Source: Betaproteobacteria bacterium
Lineage (GTDB): Bacteria > Pseudomonadota > Gammaproteobacteria > Burkholderiales > SG8-39
Length of the DNA stretch: 64,000 bases
Direction of reading: 5' to 3'
NCBI GenBank assembly: GCA_004298385.1
Contig: SCTX01000089.1
Span: 1-64,000, forward strand
Part shown: positions 13,505 to 57,004 of the stretch, in pieces
Position numbering within the stretch: the first letter of the stretch is position 1
How the letters are laid out: each line of letters begins with the position of its first letter
The notes under the pieces: model-generated
Told to the model about the DNA's origin: nothing
Database searches by the model: none
Seen by the model: the letters and a program-made list of their open reading frames with translations, nothing else
Translations under genes and position numbers: made by a program

Positions 13505-13612
13505 GGTTGCCACTATTTTAATCCCTAAGCCGGACTGACCGGAAGCGATCAACGCGCGTGCGGCTTGGAACAAGCCCTAGTCCGCCGGCCAGGGGTTTCG
13601 CGCCCGGCTTGG

Positions 13613-21733: not shown

Positions 21734-21837
21734 GGCAGAGGAGCTTGCGGCGAAAAGAGATGCGTATTATAGCTTGGGAAGATCTGATCAAGGCCGCGCG
21801 CCGATCAGACCAATTGCGGCGCGGGGGTTCTATACAA

Positions 21838-21888
21838 GATCGCCGATCGCGAGCGGATACGCTGTTCATCCGCGCGCGATCGGCGATC
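21838..21888. repeat. 51-nt hairpin, type A
   Basis: GATCGCCGATCGCGAGCGGAT-acgctgttc-ATCCGCGCGCGATCGGCGATC, 21-bp stem with 1 mismatch. Confidence 0.95.
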
Positions 21889-21991
21889 CGCGCGGACGGG
21901 TCGCCGTCCACGCAAGTTCGATCGGCGCAGTTCGGTGTACTCCCCTACGTCGAGCGATGTCGCCGGGCGGTCATTGCGCGCTCCGCGCGCC

Positions 21992-22042
21992 AACCGTGTT
22001 TCCCGTACGGATGAAAAGCGCATCCGTACGGGAAACACGGTT
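21992..22042. repeat. 51-nt hairpin, type B
   Basis: AACCGTGTTTCCCGTACGGAT-gaaaagcgc-ATCCGTACGGGAAACACGGTT, perfect stem. Confidence 0.97.
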
Positions 22043-22093
22043 CTGAATAGACGCAACATCAGCGTGGCCCGATCTAGATCGCCACCCACAAGA

Positions 22094-55390: not shown

Positions 55391-55422
55391 GGCAAGCTCG
55401 AGCCGTATTTGCTTTTTTCCAT

Positions 55423-55473
55423 AACCGTGTTTTCGGTACGGATGCGCTTTTTGTCCGTACCGGAAACGCGGTT
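55423..55473. repeat. 51-nt hairpin, type B
   Basis: AACCGTGTTTTCGGTACGGAT-gcgcttttt-GTCCGTACCGGAAACGCGGTT; 3 non-Watson-Crick positions, all U-G in a + strand RNA. Confidence 0.95.
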
Positions 55474-55577
55474 GGCGCGCGATAGCGCGCAAAGCCAGCG
55501 AATGCACCCCAGCGAACAACGGAGATCTCCTCAAGCCACGGTGCCCGAGCTTGCGCGGACGGCGGCCCGTCCGCGCG

Positions 55578-55628
55578 GATCCTCGATTGCGTACGGACGA
55601 TGACCCTGTCCGTACGCAATCGAGGATC
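55578..55628. repeat. 51-nt hairpin, type A
   Basis: GATCCTCGATTGCGTACGGAC-gatgaccct-GTCCGTACGCAATCGAGGATC, perfect stem. Confidence 0.97.
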
Positions 55629-55664
55629 TTGAATAAAACCATAATCGCTTTTGCCTTTATCCAC

Positions 55665-55715
55665 AACCGTGTTTTCTGTACGGATACGCTTTTCATCCGT
55701 ACAGAAAACACGGTT
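55665..55715. repeat. 51-nt hairpin, type B
   Basis: AACCGTGTTTTCTGTACGGAT-acgcttttc-ATCCGTACAGAAAACACGGTT, perfect stem. Confidence 0.97.
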
Positions 55716-55744
55716 CGCGCGCGCAGCGCGCAATGGCCGCCAGT

Positions 55745-57004
55745 CTACGTCGGCGGCAGCAGCCTCTCGCAGATCGCCAGATTGCGCGCTGTTGCACCTT
55801 GATGCGCGCGGCTGAACGCGAGCGCCGCCTGCGACATGCGCGCCAGGGTCGCCCGATCCCCGAGCAACTCCCCCGCCCGCTCTCCCAGCATGGCCGCGTC
55901 GGCGACCTCGATCGCGGCGCCCGCCGCCACGGCCAGCCTGGAGGCCTCGGCGAAGTTATACATATGCCGGCCGAACAGCAGCGCGCGGCCCACGGCACAG
56001 GCCTCGATCAGGTTCTGCCCGCCGTAGGGCAATAGGCTGCCGCCGATGAAAGCCAGATCGCAGGCGGCGTAGTAGGCCGGCATTTCCCCCATGCTGTCGC
56101 CGAGCAGCACGCGGCAATCCGGCGGCAGCGCGCGCGTGTCGCTGCGGCGCAGGTAGCTCAAGTTGCGCTTGGCCAGCAGATCCGCGACCTCGTCGAAGCG
56201 CTGCGGGTGGCGCGGCACCAGCAGCAGCAACAGGCCCTCGACTCGGATGCGCGCGAGCGCATCCAGGACCAACTCTTCCTCGCCCTCGCGCGTGCTTGCC
56301 GCCAGCAGTACCGGGCGTTGCCCGATGCGCCGCTTCAGTTCCGCGCCCAGGGCCAGAAGCTGCGGCGCCAAGGCGACATCGAACTTGAGATTGCCCGTCA
56401 CCTCGACCGCGCGCGCGCCCAGCCGCTCCAGGCGCTCCGCGTCCTCGCGGGTTTGAGCGCTCACCGCCGCCAGGCCGCCGAGCGCGGCGCGGGTTAGCGG
56501 CGCCACCAGCGCGTAGCCGCGGGCCGATTTTTCCGACAGGCGCGCATTGGCAAGAAGCAGCGGTACACCGAGGCGCGTGCAGCATTCGACAAGGTTGAAC
56601 CAGATTTCGGTTTCCATGAGGATGCCCAGGCGTGGCCTGAAGCGCGCGAGAAAGCGCGCCACGGCGCCGGGATAATCATAGGGCAGATAGACTATGGTCG
56701 CTACGCCGCCGTATAGCTGCTGCGCGCTCTCCCGCCCGGTCGGCGTCATCTGCGTGAGCAGCAGTTCATGCCCGGGATAACGCGCAAGCAGCGCGCGTAC
56801 CAGCGGTTCGGCGGCGCGCGTTTCACCCACGGACACTGCGTGCAGCCAGATCACCGGTCGTCCGGGCGTGGCCCGATACCAGCCGAAACGCTCGCGGATG
56901 TGTTCGCGGTAGCCGGGCTGACGCCTGCCACGCCACCAAAGGTGCATGAGCACCCAGGGAAACAGCAGCCGCAACAGCAGCCGATAAGCGAGGCGCCAGA
57001 TCAC
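55745..57004 (-). CDS. waaA: Kdo transferase
   Basis: RPVIWLHAVSVGETRAAEPLVRALLARYPGHELLLTQMTPTGRESA...VTGNLKFDVAL. Confidence 0.95.
   Translation of the reverse strand: MIWRLAYRLLLRLLFPWVLMHLWWRGRRQPGYREHIRERFGWYRATPGRPVIWLHAVSVGETRAAEPLVRALLARYPGHELLLTQMTPTGRESAQQLYGGVATIVYLPYDYPGAVARFLARFRPRLGILMETEIWFNLVECCTRLGVPLLLANARLSEKSARGYALVAPLTRAALGGLAAVSAQTREDAERLERLGARAVEVTGNLKFDVALAPQLLALGAELKRRIGQRPVLLAASTREGEEELVLDALARIRVEGLLLLLVPRHPQRFDEVADLLAKRNLSYLRRSDTRALPPDCRVLLGDSMGEMPAYYAACDLAFIGGSLLPYGGQNLIEACAVGRALLFGRHMYNFAEASRLAVAAGAAIEVADAAMLGERAGELLGDRATLARMSQAALAFSRAHQGATARNLAICERLLPPT

Follow-up and report, generated by a model that had tools for sequence, protein, structure and literature searches.

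A modular hairpin repeat between tolC and waaA, probably part of a dispersed MITE-like element family of uncultured Betaproteobacteria

The gap between the convergent genes tolC and waaA, in the 64,000-nt stretch of DNA analyzed here (the window), holds a short repeated element without genes of its own, in one and a half units. It is probable that this repeat is a copy of a dispersed, nonautonomous, MITE-like modular element, having a BOX-like layout and a REPIN-like hairpin pair, that has become lodged at gene 3' ends. In such an element, a complete copy would have a left and a right end (imperfect terminal inverted repeats [TIRs]) around one to three head-to-tail units. The repeat family appears to be undescribed so far and to stem from an uncultured betaproteobacterial lineage; no paper describing it was found in the literature within reach (most subscription titles fall outside it), including a text search with the core sequences.

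Hairpins and unit layout in the tolC–waaA gap

The features of the gap are listed in Table 1. The unit limits were set by the alignment of 54 copies from the genome of the window and its relatives, and this alignment gives the order hp0, hpA, A/T-rich linker, hpB and hpC, which in the window is read on the plus strand. In the alignment, hp0 is TTGCGCGGAC, 8 nt and GTCCGCGCGG; hpA and hpB each have a stem of 21 bp and a loop of mostly 9 nt; the linker between them measures about 36 nt; and hpC is GGCGCGCGNAGCGCGCAA. The tandem period of the units is about 240 bp. The predicted fold of the 183-nt unit at 55551–55733 has an energy of −111 kcal/mol (z = −13.9), and the tip pattern of hpB occurs three times in the window, compared with 0 by chance in 100 shuffles.

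Table 1 Features of the repeated element in the window
Feature	Position	Strand	Basis
Truncated preceding unit: end of linker (55408–55422), hpB (55423–55473; arms 20 nt, complementarity 90%) and hpC (55474–55492)	55408–55492	+	74-nt direct repeat; profile positions 91–193 matched
Spacer between units, 58 nt, as in other tandem arrays	55493–55550	+	Spacer consensus: 3' of hpC, 5' of GGC-loop hp0
hp0, short hairpin GCGCGGACGG..CCGTCCGCGC; the 32-nt block of the sequence-only reading	55551–55577	+	Pattern: 57 in own genome, 0 in reversed control
hpA, perfect 21-bp hairpin, loop 9 nt (arms 21 nt, complementarity 100%)	55578–55628	+	Inverted repeat, alignments
A/T-rich linker, hpA to hpB	55629–55664	+	Alignments
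hpB, perfect 21-bp hairpin (arms 21 nt, complementarity 100%); tip reverse-complementary to the hpA tip of the family	55665–55715	+	
hpC, short GCGCGC hairpin, end CGCGCAA	55716–55733	+	
Start of a further spacer, cut off at the waaA 3' end	55734–55750	+	Same as internal spacer of closest relative G011
Companion copy, hpB-hpC-spacer-hp0-hpA (one permuted period), between co-oriented genes	21807–22081	−	

The three long hairpins are present where a sequence-only reading of this DNA had placed them, and the division into units differs from the one proposed there. The composite of hpB, spacer, 32-nt block and hpA, which had been taken as the unit, spans the spacer of a single tandem period, with its limits shifted by part of a period. 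Likewise, the supposed third partial unit (55665–55740) belongs to the complete unit as its right half, and it is the stretch 55423–55492, the right half of the preceding unit, that is truncated, as seen from the 85% direct repeat between 55408–55492 and 55650–55723. The gap had also been described there as holding an inverted copy of a stretch at 21838–22042, and this is borne out by the reverse strand of 21826–22056, which matches 55546–55752 and 55409–55481 with 78–85% identity over 73–102 nt.

The right end of the array stops inside the spacer, and this edge may have been made by a deletion between short GGCGG matches. The waaA stop codon (55745–55747) lies inside the element spacer, such that the final codons of WaaA are determined by where the array ends. 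Three other repeats were noted in the window. Two direct repeats, 693–751/3191–3249 (98% over 59 nt) and 5119–5230/6562–6673 (93% over 112 nt), are unrelated to the element as far as seen; the third, an inverted pair at 13514–13546/45680–45712 (33 nt, 82%), may be another dispersed repeat.

Distribution, ends and orthologous sites

When the region is searched against its own genome (3.5 Mb, 169 contigs), 76 matches are found on many contigs. Within the genus, 11 of the 14 genomes, the own genome included, have 31–93 copies of hp0, and the other three have one or two. At the family scale, the element is found in 18 of 98 genomes and in 3 of 26 genera, and the two sister genera carry the same hp0-hpA-linker-hpB-hpC unit, by which a restriction to one genus is rejected. 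The named matches are mostly metagenome genomes of uncultured Betaproteobacteria or Burkholderiales, whereas searches of plasmid, phage and viral collections gave no match to the element. Nothing in Rfam scored above the gathering score; the sub-threshold, miRNA-like matches on both strands are dismissed as chance matches caused by the long perfect stems.

The ends of the element are recognized from two loop classes of hp0. The GARAA-type hp0 opens an array and has the left flank ...TATACGTGGCGACTTAAATCGCGCC...GTTGCAGAGTTGCGATNT, and the GGCGNCC-type hp0 comes after a spacer. The right end of an array reads ...GGCATGCGACGGCATTTAAGACGCCGTATA. The two ends contain imperfect TIRs, TATACGTGGCGACTTAAAT (left, 19-mer) and TATACGGCGTCTTAAAT (right, 17-mer), which were matched 41 and 49 times, respectively; both ends are found in 18 of 174 arrays, a figure that depends on the cut-off used for the end matches. 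Many family copies are truncated, and the tolC–waaA copy has neither end. A complete single-unit copy measures about 278 bp, and the element is, like MITEs, short, non-coding, present in tens of copies and strongly folded (the z-score given above). As in BOX-type repeats, the ends are constant and the number of tandem internal modules varies: arrays have one (n = 130), two (n = 39) or three (n = 5) units, always on one strand within an array, as counted at loci chosen by the exact hp0 pattern in draft, mostly metagenome assemblies, where repeats may break or collapse and the unit counts per array may be off.

The sequence-only reading had named the gain and loss of blocks as the point to check, and this was tested by comparing the tolC–waaA gap in 13 species, the own genome included. 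In the closest relative, G011 (WaaA 95% identical), there are two units, of which the first lacks hpA and the second lacks hpB. The own genome has a half unit and a full unit, three species (G005, G008 and G004) have one unit, G002 has only hp0-hpA, and G009 has an hp0/hpC remnant. No element is seen in G006 and G001, where the gaps are 33 and 62 bp, and in G013, G010, G003 and G012 short GC-rich hairpins stand in place of the element. All states between no unit and two units, including units that lack a single hairpin, thus occur among these species, and therefore blocks are gained and lost. Invariant presence together with a role as terminator only, the outcome that had been named as speaking against the sequence-only reading, is not seen among the 13 gaps, and the modular, tandem arrangement that had been suspected is evident both there and in the arrays of the family. 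As a separate observation, the short GC-rich hairpins without T-runs that lie between tolC and waaA in element-free relatives (L064, L066, L070 and L072) may be the usual 3'-end signal of the genus.

Unequal recombination, also proposed earlier, agrees with orthologous sites of close relatives that differ by one unit. One such site has two units in G011 (L212) and one in the own genome (L197), and the single unit joins the left portion of unit 1 to the right portion of unit 2, which would be the outcome expected of recombination between tandem repeats. The comparison of relatives also shows that single palindromes, either hpA or hpB, drop out nearly precisely. It is possible that the unit number changes by recombination between the 240-bp repeats and that hairpins are lost by replication slippage across them. 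In another locus of G011 (L226:10–430), the internal unit runs opposite to the ends of the element and has lost most of hpA.

Arm covariation and gene context

In 60 aligned copies, covering 42 stem pairs, 96.9% of the stem cells are paired. Two-sided changes are found in 26 of the 42 pairs (180 cells), compared with 10.5 pairs and 47 cells in shuffles and with at most 10 pairs and 15 cells in slid controls, these maxima coming from different slides. The base of the stem (positions 1–4), its tip (positions 17–20) and the loop are conserved, and the middle of the stem is variable. The consensus tips of hpA and hpB are reverse complements of each other, and the orientation of the loop is fixed, being A-rich in 167 of 172 hpA copies and T-rich in 158 of 160 hpB copies. 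The stem changes in 23 orthologous copy pairs, which share loci such that the counts are not independent, comprise 157 compensated (86 of them transversions), 55 one-sided and 20 uncompensated changes. At three loci (L046, L015 and L230), perfectly matched insertions of 1–2 nt occur in both arms of hpB.

G-U mismatches (62) are as frequent as A-C mismatches (59) on the strand that is sense for co-oriented genes, and selection at the RNA level, as judged by a G-U excess, was rejected. Because G-U equals A-C, and because transversions outnumber transitions among the compensated changes, stepwise RNA compensation through G-U is unlike the data. The pairing of the arms would be better explained by copying from one arm to the other through template switching, or by conversion from another copy, and the constant tip and loop suggest a recognition site in addition. 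Loop inversion, which is a mark of template switching across the loop, is hardly seen in the hpA and hpB loops examined. Paired arm changes could arise where another copy converts a whole hairpin, and tandem units do vary by blocks, as would be expected if spread and homogenization came about solely by recombination and gene conversion between copies. We regard this explanation, without transposition, as very improbable, since copies that share their ends lie at tens of intergenic sites unrelated to each other, which calls for an insertion step, and most copies differ in their stem sequences (101 and 116 distinct first arms).

The 127 arrays with clear neighbors lie between convergent (49), co-oriented (70) or divergent (8) genes, compared with 46, 148 and 64 background gaps in the same loci; as based on gene calls from our own simple model, convergent pairs are enriched (p = 2e-5) and divergent pairs are depleted (p = 6e-6). 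There is no strand preference relative to co-oriented genes (33 versus 37). The same context pattern is known for the pneumococcal BOX, RUP and SPRITE repeats, where it was taken to indicate parasitic mobility that is tolerated 3' of genes (PMC3049150). The position at gene 3' ends, away from divergent promoters, together with the extremely stable fold and the covarying stems, would also suit a bidirectional terminator or mRNA 3'-end stabilizer that is kept by the host because its RNA hairpins protect or terminate the two convergent transcripts. This explanation is unlikely, given that no T-run directly follows hpA or hpB, that hpC on the minus strand, as read from waaA, gives 2 weak terminator-like matches versus 0.8 expected, and that the mismatch and transversion counts described above do not resemble stepwise compensation at the RNA level. 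Moreover, any 3'-end role at tolC–waaA is optional, because six relatives have no element there, two of them with the very short gaps. If active at all at this site, the element would give both transcripts a highly stable RNA hairpin at their 3' ends.

Mobility and relation to known repeat families

The mobility that the sequence-only reading had suggested is favored by the family-wide dispersal, the TIRs and one near-empty site, but its counterpart, a transposase with matching ends, was not found. At the near-empty site (L089/L165), cgcgcat-TAT-gaagtcttt in one relative corresponds to cgcgcat-TATACTTGG...GGTATATAA-gaagtcttt in the other; this single case, from relatives that are about 80–86% alike, would fit a TA target with TA target duplication. 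The common ends, the dispersal and this site support transposition, as far as can be judged from sequence. Many insertions are common to several species and so are not evidence of recent movement. No transposase-encoding element with shared ends is found among the 15 end matches of the own genome and 24 in six relatives, and because all 15 left-end matches of the own genome adjoin hp0, lying about 50 nt upstream of it, no autonomous relative is apparent there. Many MITEs have no known parent. A search by way of the end sequence gave no autonomous parent in G011 either, where most of the end matches without hp0 are variants from which both hp0 and hpA are missing, and one is the inverted case L226. 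IS630 transposases, which use TA targets, are absent from the own genome, and their loci elsewhere have no element ends. Integron attC sites were set aside, as their box motifs, judged by eye, do not fit.

The inverted pair of hpA and hpB with reverse-complementary tips, the mosaic tandem arrays and the presence of Y1_Tnp genes in 11 of the 14 genus genomes are reminiscent of REP/BIME/REPIN-type repeats, in which inverted hairpin pairs are moved by a RAYT (a Y1 tyrosine transposase). It is nevertheless quite unlikely that the element is a repeat of this type. An association with RAYT is rejected, as 20 of the 21 Y1_Tnp loci have no element nearby, and the remaining one has a strong, IS200-like Y1_Tnp match. 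The presence of Y1_Tnp does not track the copy number either: there is no match in the genomes with 42 and 31 copies and two matches in a single-copy genome. The 21-bp stems within about 51 nt contrast with 20–40 bp for a typical whole REP (PMC3733652), the full element has long TIRs, and no unpaired GTAG or CGTC tag, as defined in the same study, is seen at the edges of hpA or hpB in the alignments. The element thus shares with REPINs and BIMEs the unit of two inverted hairpins, the mosaic tandem arrays and the extragenic position, and differs by its longer perfect stems and its ends.

Similarities also exist with three other systems. As in the BOX repeats of Streptococcus pneumoniae, boxA-boxB(n)-boxC, constant ends flank variable tandem internal modules, and both are gene-less, intergenic stem-loop repeats enriched between convergent genes (PMC3049150). 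The organisms are unrelated and the comparison covers the layout; furthermore, the internal unit described here is about 240 bp with its spacer and holds a pair of 21-bp inverted hairpins, of which single ones drop out. We know of no sequence common to BOX and the present element. The Correia elements (CREE/NEMIS) of Neisseria are likewise short, TIR-bounded, high-copy and without transposase, with stable RNA hairpins and a betaproteobacterial host (PMC10969869, PMC2649163). Unlike these elements, which are often found upstream of genes and contain promoters, the present element avoids divergent gene pairs, and no sigma-70-like promoter is seen in the tolC–waaA region. To our knowledge, tandem internal units do not occur in Correia elements. 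The perfect stems, compensated changes and paired insertions resemble hairpins maintained by template switching (PMC8794818, PMC8604942), which represent a mutation process and not an element family, and whose loop inversion is nearly missing here.

In the MITE-like reading, which we prefer, the element would have spread by transposition in trans, with a putative enzyme recognizing the ends and inserting probably into TA-containing targets, and copies would survive mainly downstream of genes. The arms would stay complementary partly via the template-switch copying, and the constant tip and loop may serve as the recognition site. It is conceivable, although rather doubtful, that the inverted hairpin pair, with its constant reverse-complementary tips and free mid-stems, is recognized by a putative structure-specific enzyme that acts in trans, moving the element as well as multiplying its internal unit in tandem. 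If true, this would be a class of mobile elements joining TIR ends with an internal double-hairpin amplification module. The family joins features that are usually apart, namely modular tandem growth as in BOX, ends like those of MITEs and inverted hairpin pairs like those of REPINs. Its hundreds of copies, with stems that are perfect yet different, form a good natural data set on the upkeep of palindromes, which may rest on RNA or DNA selection, template switching or conversion among copies.
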